A DNA stretch of 64,000 nucleotides from positions 62,001-126,000 of the forward strand of contig NZ_RSAA01000015.1 in the NCBI RefSeq assembly GCF_003931915.1. The letters are read 5' to 3'. This document shows, piece by piece, positions 21,139 to 31,990 of this stretch. The position numbers and the translations under genes are program-made. Each line of letters begins with the position of its first letter. Position 1 is the stretch's first letter. This stretch comes from Saccharopolyspora rhizosphaerae (lineage in GTDB: Bacteria > Actinomycetota > Actinomycetes > Mycobacteriales > Pseudonocardiaceae). The notes beneath the pieces are model-generated. The model did not search any database. It was not told where the DNA came from and worked only from the letters and a program-made list of their open reading frames with translations.

Positions 21139-23190
21139 ATGCTGAACCCGTTCACGCACGCGAGCAGGCGCGCAGGCGGCTCGGTCGGCTGGCGCACCTG
21201 GACCGGCCTGGTCCTCGTGCCGGTGCTCATCGTCGGAGTGCTGGCCTGGGCGTTCTGGGCGCCGATGTCCCAGCACGGCGCCGCCAAGGTGGCCGTGGTC
21301 AACAACGACGAGCCCGCCACGATCAACGGTCAGATGGCGCCGCTCGGCCGCGAGATGGCCGCGAAGCTGGTCAACAACACCGAGTCCGGTTACTCGTGGG
21401 AGATGACCGACACCGACGACGCCGAGGAGGGCCTGAGCGAGGGCCGCTACTCGGCCGCGGTGATCATCCCGCCGGAGTTCTCCCGCCACACCGCCTCGGT
21501 GATGACCGGTGAACCCCTCGACGCCACCCGCGCCGGCATCGACGTCCGGACCTCGCCGATCGCGGCGCCCGCCGACGCCGCCGCCGTCTCGTCCGCGGCC
21601 CGGCAGAGCGTCTCGGTGTTCAACCGGCAGATCCTGGAGCAGCTGCTCGACGGCTTCTACGGCGGCTTCACGCAGATGCACGACCAGCTCGGCACCGCCG
21701 TCGACGGCGCCAACAAGCTCGCCGACGGCAGCGGGCAGCTCGCCGACGGCATCGGCCAGCTGTCCGACGGCGTGGGACAGCTGACCGGGGGGACCGGGCA
21801 GCTCGCGCAGGGAGGCAACCAGCTCGCCGACGGGTCCGAGCAGCTCGCGGGCGGTGTCTCGCAGCTGTCCGGCGGTCTGACGCAGTTGCACCAGCAGATC
21901 CAGCAGATGCCCGCGCAGACCCAGCAGCTGGCCGACGGCGCCAAGCAGGTCGCCGCCGGGAACCGGCAGATGGCCAACACCTTCACGCCGCTGGCGGACC
22001 AGATCATCACCGCCACCGACCAGATCCCCACCGAGTCCAGCAGCCTCGAGGGGCTGAAGAAGCTGCTGGCCCAGTGCCCGCCGGAAGGCGCGACCGTCGA
22101 CCTGTGCAAGGGCCTGCGCGCCGAGGTCGAGCGCCTCAGCCAGCGGCAGGGCGCTCTGGACTCCCTCAAGGCGCAGATCCAGAAGCCCGCGCGCGACATG
22201 CGTGACGGGATGCAGGGCCTGGCCTACGGGTCCGAGCAGGTCGCCCAGGGCAACCAGATGCTCGCCGACAAGTCCGGTGAACTCGTCGACGGCATCGGTC
22301 AGCTCGCCCAGGGCGGGCAGCAGCTCGACGGCGGCGCGCACCAGCTCGCCGGCGGAGCGCGCCAGCTCGCCAACGGCCTCGACCAGTTCAACGGGGCGTC
22401 GCAGCAGCTCGGCACGGGCGTGAACGCGCTCGCCGACGGAAGCCGGCAGGTCGCCGACGGCAACCGCCAGTTCGCCGAGCAGATGGCGCCGGCAGGGGAC
22501 AAGCTCCCCAGCTACACCGACGAAGAGCGTGAGCACCTCAAGACCGTGGCCGCGAGCCCGGCCGCGCTGGAGTCGAGCCTGCCGGGATTCGGCAAGTCGC
22601 TGATCGCGCTGCTGGTGGCCATCGCGTTCTGGACCGCTGCGATGGGCATCTACGCGGTGACCAGGGCCGTTCCGGCCGACGCCGCGACCTCGCGCCGGTC
22701 CACCTGGCGGCTGGTTCACAGCTCGGCACTGCCCGGTGCCGCGGTCGCCGCGATCGGCTCGGTGCTGGTGAGCACGGTCCTGGCGCCGTTCCTGGGCCTC
22801 GGGTTCGGCGGTTGGGCGGCGTTCACCGGCGTGACGCTGCTGGCCGCGCTGGCGTTCGTGGCTGTCAACCAGGCGCTGATCGCGGTGTTCGGCAGCATCG
22901 GACGGATCATCTCGATCGCGGTCCTGGTGCTGACCGCGGCCACGGGCGTGGTCTCGACGGTGCCCGGGTTCCTCCGCGACATCGGCGGGCTGCTGCCGAC
23001 CCAGGGTGCCGTGCAGGCGCTTTCGGCGATCGTGACCGGGAGCGGCGGTGCCGCGAGCGGAGTCCTGCAGCTGATCGCGTGGCTCATCGCGGGAGTCCTG
23101 GTGTTCGCTCTGGCGGTGGACCGGGCCCGCGTCGTGTCCTCGCGCCAGTTCCGCCGTCGACCCACACCGGGAGCGCGTCCGGCCTGGTGA
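21139..23190 (+). CDS. YhgE/Pip-domain membrane protein
   Basis: A 683-residue membrane protein of the YhgE/Pip family. There is one N-terminal membrane helix (WTGLVLVPVLIVGVLAWAFW), then a long exported region with many repeats of the type QLADGxxQLAxG, and about five C-terminal helices of the ABC-2 type. The ATG follows GGAGG at the end of the MMPL gene, so the two are one operon. YhgE relatives act with ABC-type ATPases in export or phage docking; here the only ATPase-like domain is the degenerate tail of the MMPL protein. Confidence 0.88.
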   Translation: MLNPFTHASRRAGGSVGWRTWTGLVLVPVLIVGVLAWAFWAPMSQHGAAKVAVVNNDEPATINGQMAPLGREMAAKLVNNTESGYSWEMTDTDDAEEGLSEGRYSAAVIIPPEFSRHTASVMTGEPLDATRAGIDVRTSPIAAPADAAAVSSAARQSVSVFNRQILEQLLDGFYGGFTQMHDQLGTAVDGANKLADGSGQLADGIGQLSDGVGQLTGGTGQLAQGGNQLADGSEQLAGGVSQLSGGLTQLHQQIQQMPAQTQQLADGAKQVAAGNRQMANTFTPLADQIITATDQIPTESSSLEGLKKLLAQCPPEGATVDLCKGLRAEVERLSQRQGALDSLKAQIQKPARDMRDGMQGLAYGSEQVAQGNQMLADKSGELVDGIGQLAQGGQQLDGGAHQLAGGARQLANGLDQFNGASQQLGTGVNALADGSRQVADGNRQFAEQMAPAGDKLPSYTDEEREHLKTVAASPAALESSLPGFGKSLIALLVAIAFWTAAMGIYAVTRAVPADAATSRRSTWRLVHSSALPGAAVAAIGSVLVSTVLAPFLGLGFGGWAAFTGVTLLAALAFVAVNQALIAVFGSIGRIISIAVLVLTAATGVVSTVPGFLRDIGGLLPTQGAVQALSAIVTGSGGAASGVLQLIAWLIAGVLVFALAVDRARVVSSRQFRRRPTPGARPAW

Positions 23191-23198
23191 CCCCCGGG

Positions 23199-23234
23199 GC
23201 AGGGGCGGAGGTTCCCCTGAACCTCCGCCCCTGC
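23199..23234. terminator. strong hairpin after the YhgE gene
   Basis: A perfect 16-bp stem (23199-23214 and 23219-23234) with a 4-base loop. It lies between two convergent genes and can serve both. Confidence 0.85.
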
Positions 23235-23242
23235 TCGCGTGC

Positions 23243-23816
23243 CTAGGGGTGCCAGCGTGGGTCGCGGCCGATCTTCGCGATGGTCCTGGCGAGCGTGGGG
23301 GAGCCCTCGGTGGCCGGGACCTCAACCGCGAAAGCACCTCTCTCCCGCCCCGTGGCCGCGGTGCGGGTCACCACGACGAGGGTGTGGTTGAGCGTTCCGG
23401 TGTCCCACGTGGCCTCGGTGTCGGTCGCCCGCGCGAGGTCCCAGGCGTGCACCGTGAACTCGATCGTGATCAGCCCGCCCGCGACCTCCGCCGGGTACTG
23501 AGCCGCCCCGCCCATGTGCGTCTTCCCCGTCCAGGAAGTCGGGGTGTTCCAGGCGTGGGCGGTGCGGTCGAGCTGCGAGAGCAGGTACTTCGCGCCATCA
23601 CCGGAGGTCCTGTCCACGACCTCGACAGGGGGGCGCCACCCGCTCGCCCCGAGCCGCCGCCTCGAGCGACGGTCCCCAGAGCAGCAGGTGGTTGATCAAC
23701 GCTCGCACGTCGAACTCCGCGCACGGCGTCGGCGCCGTCAGCTGCGCGGGCGAGCTCCCGGAGGCGACCTGCTTGAGCGTCGCCGCCGCCTGGACCAGGT
23801 GCTGAGCTTCGGACAT
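23243..23816 (-). pseudogene. TIGR03086-type metal-binding (mycothiol maleylpyruvate-isomerase-like) gene with frameshift
   Basis: The reading frame is broken. The first part runs MSEAQHLVQAAATLKQVAS to ERVAPP (23816 to about 23630); the second continues in another frame as VDRTSGDGAKYLLSQLDRTA to the stop at 23243. Joined together they form a normal protein of the TIGR03086/MDMPI family with the metal-binding helix bundle. The break is at six consecutive G (23628-23633, plus strand); five would restore one frame reading APPVEVVDR. It is therefore a real frameshift or a homopolymer sequencing error. It would otherwise encode a thiol-dependent enzyme of unknown substrate. Confidence 0.78.
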
Positions 23817-27862: not shown

Positions 27863-29896
27863 ATGGACCACGAGAAGCGTGAGCCCTGGGCGGTGCAGCT
27901 GGGTGCGGAGAAGATCCTCGCCGCCGAGGACATGCGGGACTACGCGATCTTCGGACTGGACGCCGAAGGTCGCGTGGCCAGCTGGAACGCAGGCGCGGCC
28001 AACCTCAACGGCTACTCCTCCGAAGAGGTCATCGGCCGGCACTTCTCCCTCTTCTACCCGCCCGAGCAGGTCGCCGTCGACTACCCGAACTGGGAGCTGG
28101 GGCAGGCCGTCGAAGACGGCTTCTTCATCGACCGCGGATGGCGCGTCCGCAAGGACAGCACCCGGTTCTGGGCGCACGTGGTCATCGCAGCGCAGCGCAC
28201 ACCCGACGGCGAGCTCGACGGGTTCATCAAGGTGGTGCGCAACGAGAGCGAGGCCGCGGCTCGCGTCGAACGGACCCAGCGGCGGCTCGCGGACCTGTTC
28301 GAGCTCGCCCCCTCGGGAATCGCCCTGCTCGACGACGCGGGACGGTTCCTCGACGCCAACGGTGCGCTCTGTGACCTGCTCGACTACCGGCTCGAGGACC
28401 TGATCGGGCGCCGGGACGTCGAGGTCCTCGACCCGACCGACACCGGCGGCGGGCTGGTCGGAGGCGCGTCGCGCTCCACCGGCGAGGTGCTCGTCCCGCA
28501 CCGGGTGCTGGCCCGCTCGGACGGCTCCCTGGTGCCTTGCCAGGTACACGCCGCCGCGTCGGTCGGCGACGACGGCAGCCGCAGCTGGTTGATCATCTTC
28601 CACGACATCACCGAACAGCTCGCGCGCGCCATGACGCTGCGCTTCCAGGCCACCCACGACGAGCTCACCGGGCTGCTCAACCGGAGGGGCTTCGAGGAGC
28701 GGCTCGCCGAGCTGCTGCCTCCGGAGAAGCCCGGAAGCCTGGCCGTGCTGTTCTGCGACCTGCACAACTTCAAGCGGGTCAACGACGCCCTCGGCCACGA
28801 AGCCGGTGACGAGCTGCTGTCCAAGGTCGCCGAACGCCTCATGGACGGGCTGCCCCCGCGGTGCGAAGCGGCCCGCTTCTACGGCGACGAGTTCGTGGTG
28901 CTGTGCCGGGACATCGACGGCGACAACGACCTCCAGGAGATCGTCGAGGGCCTGCACGAGCTGTTCCACCGGGCACTTCCGCTGCGTCGCAGGCAGGTCA
29001 AGGTCACCGCGTCGATCGGCGTCAAGGTCGTCGAGGACGCCGGTGTCGAGGGCGTGGAACTGCTGCGCTCGGCGGAGTCGGCGATGCTCGACGCCCGGTT
29101 GCGGGGCCTGACGAGCACCGAGGTCGACCACGACCAGCTCACGCTGGAGCAGAACCTGCGCGATGCCATCGCTCGCGACGAGGTCGGTGTCCACTACCAG
29201 CCGATCGTCGACAACGACGACAACGTGGTCATCGCCGAGGCGCTGCTGCGCTGGGAGCACCCCGAGCTCGGGCCGCTCACGCCGGACGTGGTGCTCGCCG
29301 TCGCCTCGCGCGGGGGCATGCTCGCCGAGCTCGACACCTGCGTGCTGCGCGCGGCCTTGCGCGCGTCCACGACCTTCCGCCGGCCGGACGGCACGTCGGT
29401 GAAGGTTGCGGTGAACCTCGCCGGGCTGCGGCCGGAGCACCCGGGCTTCGCCGACGTCGTGCGCTCGGTGATCAGAGAAACCGGTGCCGAGCCGACGGAC
29501 GTGGTGCTGGAGATGGTCGAAACCGTGTTCGCGCAGCTCGAGCCGGAGCAGCGGCAGGAGATGATCGAGCTCGTCTCGGACGGGGTGCAGTTCGCCGTCG
29601 ACGACTTCGGCACCGGCTACTCCTCGCTGGCGGTCCTCAAGGAGCTGCCGACGCAGATCATCAAGCTGGACCGGATGTTCATCTCCGGCGTCGGCGAGGA
29701 GCCCGACGACCTCGGCATCGCCCGCGCCATGACGGAGCTGGCCCGCACGCTGGGCCGGATGTGCATCGCGGAAGGCGTGGAAACGGCCACGCAGCACCAG
29801 CTCCTCCGCGCGGTCTCGGTCGACGCCTACCAGGGCTTCTACTTCTCCAGGCCGCTCCCGGCGGACGACTTCCGCGCCTACCTCGCAGGCCGCTGA
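27863..29896 (+). CDS. PAS-PAS-GGDEF-EAL cyclic-di-GMP protein
   Basis: A 677-residue cytoplasmic signalling protein. PAS domains span about 20-135 and 140-255, a GGDEF domain 260-420, and an EAL domain 425-677. The GGDEF signature is YGDEF (340-344), not GGDEF or SGDEF, so cyclase activity is doubtful. The EAL side keeps EALLR (459-463), DDFGTGYSS and AEGVET, so phosphodiesterase activity is likely. No membrane helix is seen. It therefore probably degrades c-di-GMP in response to a PAS-sensed cue. Confidence 0.92.
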   Translation: MDHEKREPWAVQLGAEKILAAEDMRDYAIFGLDAEGRVASWNAGAANLNGYSSEEVIGRHFSLFYPPEQVAVDYPNWELGQAVEDGFFIDRGWRVRKDSTRFWAHVVIAAQRTPDGELDGFIKVVRNESEAAARVERTQRRLADLFELAPSGIALLDDAGRFLDANGALCDLLDYRLEDLIGRRDVEVLDPTDTGGGLVGGASRSTGEVLVPHRVLARSDGSLVPCQVHAAASVGDDGSRSWLIIFHDITEQLARAMTLRFQATHDELTGLLNRRGFEERLAELLPPEKPGSLAVLFCDLHNFKRVNDALGHEAGDELLSKVAERLMDGLPPRCEAARFYGDEFVVLCRDIDGDNDLQEIVEGLHELFHRALPLRRRQVKVTASIGVKVVEDAGVEGVELLRSAESAMLDARLRGLTSTEVDHDQLTLEQNLRDAIARDEVGVHYQPIVDNDDNVVIAEALLRWEHPELGPLTPDVVLAVASRGGMLAELDTCVLRAALRASTTFRRPDGTSVKVAVNLAGLRPEHPGFADVVRSVIRETGAEPTDVVLEMVETVFAQLEPEQRQEMIELVSDGVQFAVDDFGTGYSSLAVLKELPTQIIKLDRMFISGVGEEPDDLGIARAMTELARTLGRMCIAEGVETATQHQLLRAVSVDAYQGFYFSRPLPADDFRAYLAGR

Positions 29897-30184
29897 CCCG
29901 CCGGACCGCCACCGGACCTCGCAGCGGGAACGGCGGTGGAGAACCCGCCCGCCGGTGGAGAGCAGCTCCGTGCTGTGTGGAGTGTCGACACGACGTGCCG
30001 CGGAGCGCGCACTGCTTGAGAGTCAGCGGACGGCGTCGGCGCCGGACATCCCCGACGAGACCGGCACCGACGCGCGTCCTCCCCCCTCACCATGGACCCT
30101 CGGCGCGGCGGACATCCGGAAGGCGCGCTCTTCTCTTCCAGACAGTCTTCTTCCGAGGATTCTTCTTGTACGGAAGGTATATAG

Positions 30185-30560
30185 GCGCTGCAGCGCCCGC
30201 AAGGCTTGATCGTGATCTGTGGGACGAACCACCAGCGGAGGCTCTGCACGGGTCGACCGTGGTTCCTGGCCTGGGAGAAGGGCAACCGTGCGGATTGGAG
30301 GCGTCGGCGGGGGCGGAGGCGCTGGTAAAACGTGCCGACTCCGGTGCCAGGAGGGGGGAGCTGGCGTCCGGCCAGGTCTCGGGCGAGCTCTTCGCTCGGC
30401 GAAGAGGGGGACAACTGCTCGCCCGGGTGCCCTGGGGTCGGGGCTTTCAGCGCCGTCGCCGGGCGCGTCCAATCCGCACGGCTCGGTCCTCGGCTGCCAG
30501 CGCGGAGCGCGAGCCGGACCGATCGACACCTCCCGGAGTCCAAGATCAGAACCTCGTCGC
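30185..30560 (+). ncRNA. candidate rod-like structured RNA (6S/Ms1-like shape), unassigned
   Basis: This part of a 770-base gap holds several nested perfect stems on one axis. They are 30286-30299 with 30468-30481 (14 bp), GGCGCTG 30318-30324 with CAGCGCC 30448-30454, CGGGCGAG with CTCGCCCG near 30380-30387/30418-30425, and CTCTTCG with CGAAGAG inside. CCAGG and CCTGG flank the third stem. A TATATA box (30178-30183) precedes it. The extended hairpin with internal loops recalls 6S or mycobacterial Ms1 RNA, but no sequence match is claimed. The strand is a guess from the TATA box, and the ends are approximate. Confidence 0.5.
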
Positions 30561-30663
30561 GCAGAAGCTAACAAGTTCTCTTCTGTCGTGCAAGATAATT
30601 GCCGTAGAACATCCGGACTTCCGAGTACTCCGGTTCCCGTTGCGGGTGGGGAACCCCCTGCTC

Positions 30664-31170
30664 ATGCTGAGCAGCGTGAAGACGCGGCTGGTCCCGCTCG
30701 GCGGGTGCGCAGCGCTGCTCGTCGCAGCGAGCGCGTGCACGATCAACATCGTGCCGCCGGGAGCCACGCCGCCGCCGGCTCCCGCCCCTGCCACCGCGCC
30801 GCCGCAGGCGCCGACGGTGGCGCCGCCGACCGCGGTCGAGCAGCAGGAGACCGTGCGGACCACGGACGACTGCCGGGAACTGCGGCGGTCGGGCATGAGC
30901 TTCACCGACGTCGTCCAGTACTGGTACGGCTTGGGCAGTCCCGTGGACATGGACGACGACCGCGACGGGATCCCGTGCGAGACGATCTACGGCGAGAAGA
31001 ACGGCCCCTCCACCACACCGCGGACGCCGACCCACGACTGCGCGACCTTGCAGGCCCAGGGCATGTCCTTCGCCGAGGTCACCGACTACTGGTACGGACT
31101 CGGGTCACCGTCGGACATGGACGACGACTCCGACGGCATCCCGTGCGAAACCATCTACGGCGATCGCTAG
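30664..31170 (+). CDS. lipoprotein with two DxDxDG (excalibur-like) repeats
   Basis: A 168-residue secreted protein. The signal peptide ends in LLVAASAC, a lipobox-like site, followed by a proline/alanine linker. Two copies of a ~45-residue repeat follow: MSFTDVVQYWYGLGSPVDMD and MSFAEVTDYWYGLGSPSDMD, each ending in DGIPCETIYG. The DxDxDGxxCE pattern is that of excalibur calcium-binding domains. The protein is likely anchored on the outer face of the membrane; its partner is unknown. The internal ATG at 30664 is the first with a signal peptide behind it. Confidence 0.83.
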   Translation: MLSSVKTRLVPLGGCAALLVAASACTINIVPPGATPPPAPAPATAPPQAPTVAPPTAVEQQETVRTTDDCRELRRSGMSFTDVVQYWYGLGSPVDMDDDRDGIPCETIYGEKNGPSTTPRTPTHDCATLQAQGMSFAEVTDYWYGLGSPSDMDDDSDGIPCETIYGDR

Positions 31171-31252: not shown

Positions 31253-31990
31253 ATGGCTGAAATCGTCTATCCGCCCGTCATCCTGGCGGCGAAGGCCATG
31301 TTCCGCGTGCTGGACAACCGGCTGCGTGTGACGGGCACCGAGCACATCCCGCGCACCGGAGGCGCGGTGATCGCCTGCAACCACGTCAGCTACCTCGATT
31401 TCATCTTCTGCGGTCTGGGCGCCCAGCCGGCTGAGCGGCTGGTGCGCTTCATGGCCAAGAAGGAAGTCTTCGACAACAAGATCGCCGGGCCGCTGATGCG
31501 CGGCATGCACCACATCCCGGTGGACCGGACCGCGGGCCGCGAGTCCTACGACGAAGCGGTGCGCCGGCTGCGCGCGGGCGAGGTCGTGGGTGTGTTCCCC
31601 GAGGCGACCATCAGCCGGTCGTTCGGCGTCAAGCCCATCAAGTCCGGCGCGGTCCGGATGGCCGCCGAGGCCGGGGTGCCCGTCGTGCCCATGGCCCTGT
31701 GGGGCACGCACCGGTTGTGGACGAAGGGCAGGCCGCGCACGCTCACCAAGCGCCACCTGCCCATCCACATCCACGCGGGCGAGCCGTTCTGGCCGACTCC
31801 GCAGGACGACGCGGACGTGCTCACCGAGGACCTCCGCTCCCGGATGTCGACAATCCTCGACGGGCTCCAGGCCGACTACCCCGAGGAACCGGCGAGCGAG
31901 GACGAGCGCTGGTGGCTGCCCGCCCACCTCGGCGGCACCGCCCCGACACCGGAGGAAGCCGCGGTCCTCGACAGCCGCTCCAAGGAGTGA
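31253..31990 (+). CDS. 1-acyl-glycerol-3-phosphate acyltransferase (PlsC-like)
   Basis: A 245-residue acyltransferase. The catalytic HxxxxD motif is NHVSYLD, followed by FMAKKEVFDNKIAGPLMRG, a FPEATIS block (PEGT-like) and VPVVPMALWGTHRLW. It adds the second acyl chain in phosphatidic acid synthesis or acylates a related lipid. The gene appears monocistronic. Confidence 0.9.
   Translation: MAEIVYPPVILAAKAMFRVLDNRLRVTGTEHIPRTGGAVIACNHVSYLDFIFCGLGAQPAERLVRFMAKKEVFDNKIAGPLMRGMHHIPVDRTAGRESYDEAVRRLRAGEVVGVFPEATISRSFGVKPIKSGAVRMAAEAGVPVVPMALWGTHRLWTKGRPRTLTKRHLPIHIHAGEPFWPTPQDDADVLTEDLRSRMSTILDGLQADYPEEPASEDERWWLPAHLGGTAPTPEEAAVLDSRSKE

Follow-up and report, generated by a model that had tools for sequence, protein, structure and literature searches.

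A conserved element with a predicted rod-like RNA fold in the gap between a PAS-GGDEF-EAL gene and an Excalibur lipoprotein gene of Saccharopolyspora rhizosphaerae

Three described RNA classes offer the closest comparisons for the element reported here. Passages of PMC4191392 describe the actinobacterial RNA Ms1 (RF02566) as a long hairpin that opens into a central bubble, with two further short hairpins close to its ends, the bubble and its flanks being the most conserved parts, and part of PMC9130861 gives an HAD-IB hydrolase gene as the neighbor of the Ms1 gene. 6C RNA (RF01066; B11 in mycobacteria) is likewise actinobacterial and has a hairpin that exposes a run of six C. According to sections of PMC10470900, B11 has two C-rich loops and acts by pairing them with ribosome-binding sites, with evidence that includes loop mutants. 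6S RNA is a single long rod with internal loops and a large central bubble, and Ms1 binds the RNA polymerase core.

The element lies in a gap between genes of S. rhizosphaerae, within the 64-kb stretch of DNA that was analyzed (the window), and recurs in two other species; the three are called carriers below. Like Ms1, it measures about 300 nt and has a long helical body, but its neighbors are different, its inner rod is poorly conserved, and it has no match to the Ms1 model. It shares with 6C RNA the hairpin exposing six C but is much longer, and its conserved fold contains one C-rich loop rather than two. The long rod with internal loops recalls 6S RNA, whereas the predicted branched apex, the enclosing outer helix, and the lack of an Rfam match set the element apart from it.

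An earlier note, made from the sequence alone, had read the overall shape as that of 6S RNA or Ms1, a reading that our searches do not support. The Rfam 6S models had no match at the gathering threshold anywhere in the window, nor any within 29850-30800 when E was relaxed to 10; neither Ms1 nor 6C RNA was matched over that interval at the same E. The four Rfam matches listed there, also at E up to 10, belong to other families and fall far below their cut-offs. Elsewhere in the same genome, at L091, we found a match to RF02566 at 999-1236 on the minus strand (60.2 bits, E 2.4e-13, below the curated cut-off of 162) and a 6C RNA at 2428-2501 on the plus strand (RF01066, 76.1 bits, above the cut-off), the two flanking an HAD-IB hydrolase gene; the Rfam search of this locus covered the copy in the window's genome only. 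The noncoding stretches of the L091 locus are strongly conserved in five genus genomes, among them both carriers and non-carriers. No HAD-IB gene (TIGR01490) lies beside the element, all matches being outside the window. Because Rfam finds no Ms1 match here and one sits at the genome's HAD-IB locus, the element is not an Ms1 orthologue by the tests of model and neighbor, and the test of conservation agrees, the inner rod being less conserved than the closing arms.

Upstream of a second HAD-IB gene, at L098, about 300 bases are conserved at 0.83-0.97 in six genomes, with no clear codon periodicity and no Rfam match up to E 0.5; this stretch could be another RNA or a leader. Among the literature matches listed, no title concerned the element's RNA, and the main text of PMC3827479, on small RNAs of S. 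erythraea, contains neither "6S RNA" nor "Rfam".

The gap and its predicted fold

The neighboring genes and the predicted parts of the fold are as follows.

27863-29896, PAS-GGDEF-EAL gene, bordering the gap on one side
30664-31170, Excalibur-domain lipoprotein gene, bordering the gap on the other side
31253-31990, acyltransferase gene, next after the Excalibur gene
30534-30526 (GGGAGGUGU) with 30280-30273, minus strand, predicted outer helix enclosing the 5′ hairpin and the rod (coordinates derived by counting along the alignment)
30483-30522, minus strand, predicted 5′ hairpin of 16 pairs, invariant, with every scored cell paired
30282-30482, minus strand, predicted rod with closing stem, internal loops, and branched apex
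30346-30365, minus strand, predicted apical hairpin with C-rich loop CUCCCCCCUC (loop 30360-30351); UCCCCCCUCC is identical in all three sequences

We rejected the reading of the gap as a coding stretch: no Pfam domain was found in four reading frames across it (E 0.001), and the gaps in the carrier alignment measure 1, 2, and 6 bases, so that indels are not confined to multiples of three.

The 14-bp pairing of ends described in the earlier note (30286-30299 with 30468-30481) is exactly complementary, and the arms can be lengthened to 18 nt at 94% (30286-30303 with 30464-30481). The accompanying claim that such arms rarely arise by chance holds for the whole fold but not for the arms alone, since inverted repeats of 13 nt or longer, within 260 nt, number 78 in the 64 kb, and the rod arms are 15th in the list. 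Compared with dinucleotide shuffles, the fold of 30270-30500 had a z of -5.15 on the plus strand and -5.88 on the minus strand, and none of 200 shuffles matched the native fold on either. When the 64 kb was scanned in 159 segments (200 nt, step 400, 20 shuffles each, on a grid placed to fit the rod), the segment holding the rod ranked first, with z of -6.7 (plus) and -7.3 (minus). For the predicted 294-nt transcript of the window, z was only -2.98, with 1 of 200 shuffles as good, and for the matching stretches of the two relatives it was -5.11 and -5.67. The runners-up in the scan, 2286-2485 (z -6.8) and 23086-23285 (z -6.5), contain a 20-nt hairpin at 95% and a 16-nt perfect hairpin and are perhaps terminators.

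Five nested stems on a single axis had originally been proposed. The rod is real, but the consensus prediction gives it a branched apex with two hairpins, as well as an asymmetric internal loop of about 4 vs 12 nt. In addition, the conserved feature exceeds the rod: it reaches about 30534, and a promoter-like pair extends to 30593. Folded separately, all three sequences form the outer helix in their minimum-energy structures, 2 of its 8 pairs changing from G-C to G-U, and in each of these structures the 5′ GGGAGG is paired to the 3′ end; an alternative in which GGGAGG would bind the C-rich loop (about -15 kcal/mol for the duplex in isolation) was set aside for this reason. Within the 7-pair stem of the C-rich apical hairpin, one pair changes from C-G to U-A, four are invariant, and two are unpaired in one sequence.

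A hairpin repeat of about 70 bases (30023-30095; GGCGCCGGACATCCCC... CCCCCTCA) was also seen by eye, once in the window's gap and in up to three copies in the corresponding gap of relatives. Two further weak matches to it occur in the window's genome.

Conservation and occurrence in relatives

The element is present in 3 of 22 Saccharopolyspora genomes, those of S. rhizosphaerae (the window), S. ipomoeae, and S. flava, and in each its orientation and its two flanking genes are the same. The two relatives are identical to the window at 185 of 251 and 186 of 252 aligned positions (74%) and are nearly alike, with 240 of 260 positions identical. Three-way identity per 20 bases reached 0.80-0.95 in the 5′ hairpin, the closing arms (whose 14 nt are identical in all three sequences), and the C-rich hairpin; in the inner rod it was 0.40-0.60 over 30464-30365 and 0.65 over 30344-30305. 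On the 5′ side of a minus-strand reading, strong conservation runs through the 5′ hairpin to GGGAGGUGU. At the other end, identity drops to 0.10 over the 20 bases that follow 30265 and returns to 0.45-0.60 further on.

Compensatory changes in relatives, proposed from the outset as a check, were found. Six of 97 consensus pairs are altered on both sides, compared with a shuffle mean of 2.7, and 3 of 500 column shuffles reach 6; these figures come from three sequences, with a structure taken from the same alignment and shuffles that ignore relatedness. Slid structures yielded 0-2 double-changed pairs, and with a model-fitted alignment (85 pairs) 4 of 500 shuffles were as good. Most consensus pairs are invariant, and no covariation evidence comes from the 14-bp closing arms or the 5′ hairpin. 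When a model was built from the relatives' two sequences only, it found the window at 84 bits (E 3.6e-21), and its next best score in the rest of the 64 kb was 9.6 bits. The same locus in three species, the covarying pairs, and this held-out match together support a conserved structured RNA and, to that extent, the original suggestion.

A DNA search of 100 relatives, including the window's genome, returned 14 matches: the window, two long matches in the same genus, and eleven short ones (E 9.9e-5 to 9.4e-4), one of which corresponds to the other arm of the G009 element. The model, run with E up to 1, matched 13 of the 22 genus genomes. The three convincing matches scored 187-291 bits (all three sequences belong to the model), while the other ten genomes had weak matches only, at 15-21 bits. 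We took the twelve weak loci in these ten genomes as chance; the five inspected aligned mainly over outer stems, across 88-118 bases. Samples of 200 family genomes and 298 order genomes, which were searched with stricter filters and overlap each other and the genus set, gave two matches, both to previously found carriers, and one match, the window itself, respectively. Several other candidates were discarded. Arm sequence in G011 and G021 was dismissed, the model scoring nothing above 9.9 bits there; a Mycobacterium contig (L063, 46.5 bits) carries a near-perfect long inverted copy at its end, read by eye as an assembly artefact; and L066 (22.8 bits) holds several copies of a short repeat containing the arm sequence. 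From arm-pattern scans that yielded 29 stretches, only the two known Saccharopolyspora ones held up.

Three relatives (G001, G007, and G016) have the same gene order and lack the element, with no model score above 9.8 bits in their gaps. This absence, like the synteny, the conservation, and the predicted fold, was established by computation. The gap measures about 280-400 bases in these relatives vs about 770-890 in carriers, where the lengths for G015 and G016 are estimates as the Excalibur match there starts after residue 1. Relative to G016, S. flava has about 400 extra bases that span the RNA and the promoter-like pair; the window aligns too poorly with G001 and G007 to place exact element edges. 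Because the tree unites the carriers with 53% support only, gain and loss of the element are not polarized.

Strand and promoter-like pairs

We consider it quite probable that the RNA would be read from the minus strand, opposite to the strand first assumed. The earlier reading had placed a TATATA box upstream, as a plus-strand promoter. The box is present (30178-30183) and overlaps the -10 of one of two minus-strand promoter-like pairs; its role as a plus-strand promoter is unsupported, and the evidence favors the minus strand.

30593-30588 (-35, TTGCAC), 17-nt spacer, 30570-30565 (-10, TAGCTT), minus strand, promoter-like pair in register in all three carriers
30174-30202, minus strand, second promoter-like pair TTGCGG-N17-TACCTT, found at equivalent positions in the three carriers

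The first pair, which has the form TTGCRC-N17-TAGCTT across the carriers, stops 28-30 bases before the conserved GGGAGGTGT, and from it we infer an RNA start near 30558. The second, whose -10 is the one overlapping TATATA, sits beyond the 3′ end, outside the RNA. The pattern TTGN3-N16-18-TAN3T occurs exactly twice per carrier gap on the minus strand and 0 times on the plus strand. Over 29850-30800, a stricter built-in sigma-70 scan found no promoter-like site on either strand, and the built-in scan for terminator-like sites found none on either strand. A small hairpin lies 3′ of the RNA in both relatives and is missing in the window.

The minus strand is favored because the promoter pattern is found there only and because separate folds of the three sequences share more pairs on it: 51 exact pairs vs 26 on the plus strand, 64 vs 43 with a two-column tolerance, and 43 vs 26 exact pairs over a shorter span. 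It is also favored because strong conservation extends along the 5′ side of the minus reading and dips just after its 3′ side, and because GGGAGG is joined to the 3′ end in every separate fold. Of the paired substitutions that distinguish the two close relatives, 9 of 13 preserve pairing on the minus strand and 5 of 10 do so on the plus consensus, a pair altered on both sides being counted twice. The consensus energy is lower on the plus strand (-123.06 vs -113.99 kcal/mol on the minus), and double-changed pairs number 7 on the plus vs 6 on the minus strand.

About 60 bases before the expected start, S. flava has a perfect CRP-like palindrome, TGTGA-N6-TCACA; no perfect copy is found in the window or in S. 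ipomoeae.

Competing explanations and a proposed mode of action

Our preferred reading, to which we assign a probability of about 0.45, is that the element is a free-standing small-RNA gene on the minus strand of some Saccharopolyspora, whose product acts in trans through the C-rich loop. Judged from its sequence features, the candidate gene likely spans about 30558-30270. Transcription would start near 30558 from TTGCAC-N17-TAGCTT and stop near 30270, yielding an RNA of about 265-290 nt. The outer helix would join the RNA ends around the 5′ hairpin and the long rod, and the exposed C-rich loop would sit at the apex of the rod. This loop would pair with G-rich ribosome-binding sites of target mRNAs and thereby block translation, the rigid rod protecting the RNA and displaying the loop. 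Taken by itself, the loop mechanism is tentative; it draws on the 6C/B11 analogy and the invariance of the loop, because none of the six genomes examined, of which three are carriers, showed an excess of G-rich sites preceding start codons. Against reversed-pattern controls, the carriers had 49 vs 60, 57 vs 77, and 71 vs 71 such sites, and G-rich ribosome sites were rejected as targets of the loop on this lack of enrichment.

We weighed several other accounts of the same locus. An RNA of the 6S/Ms1 kind, additional to the genome's own Ms1-like RNA and binding RNA polymerase as a promoter mimic, would fit the comparable size and long helical body (Ms1 being, in the passages of PMC4191392, a long hairpin with a central bubble) as well as the asymmetric internal loop of the rod. 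We regard it as unlikely: the Rfam 6S and Ms1 models are unmatched here while the Ms1 match lies beside an HAD-IB gene elsewhere, the closing arms are more conserved than the inner rod, and convincing matches are confined to 3 of 22 genus genomes. The rod might also be a cis-acting leader on the plus strand that controls expression of the Excalibur lipoprotein gene from within its 5′ untranslated region. The element is indeed upstream of that gene in all three carriers, the plus fold is very stable, and the plus consensus has the lower energy, but the tested promoter pattern is absent from the plus strand in all three carriers, plus folds agree less (26 vs 51 pairs), and three relatives carry the Excalibur gene without the element, so that a leader appears improbable.

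There is little reason to prefer an element or remnant at the DNA level that folds by accident, such as a protein-binding palindrome or what is left of a mobile element with inverted ends. The presence or absence of about 400 bases between S. flava and G016 would suit it, as would arms that are identical in three species without compensating changes. Yet the genome has a single full-length copy, its other 17 matches being short with E of at least 0.002; phages and plasmids gave no match at E 1e-5; of the 29 arm-pattern stretches the two known Saccharopolyspora ones alone survived; the arms enclose neither the outer helix nor the promoter-like pair; and some pairs covary. A more speculative reading, and an improbable one, is a new RNA family in which a ready-made unit with its own promoter was gained in one Saccharopolyspora lineage; the end-closed rod with its 6C-like loop would then be a large structured regulator, possibly acting on RNA polymerase or the ribosome and not on single mRNAs.

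The locus illustrates that a 6S-like outline seen by eye is not the same as 6S RNA, in a genome that has an Ms1-like RNA elsewhere. If transcribed, the element would add a candidate RNA family with no Rfam match to Saccharopolyspora, a genus of antibiotic producers. Carriers and non-carriers with the same gene order would then form natural with/without pairs for the origin, loss, and function of the RNA.
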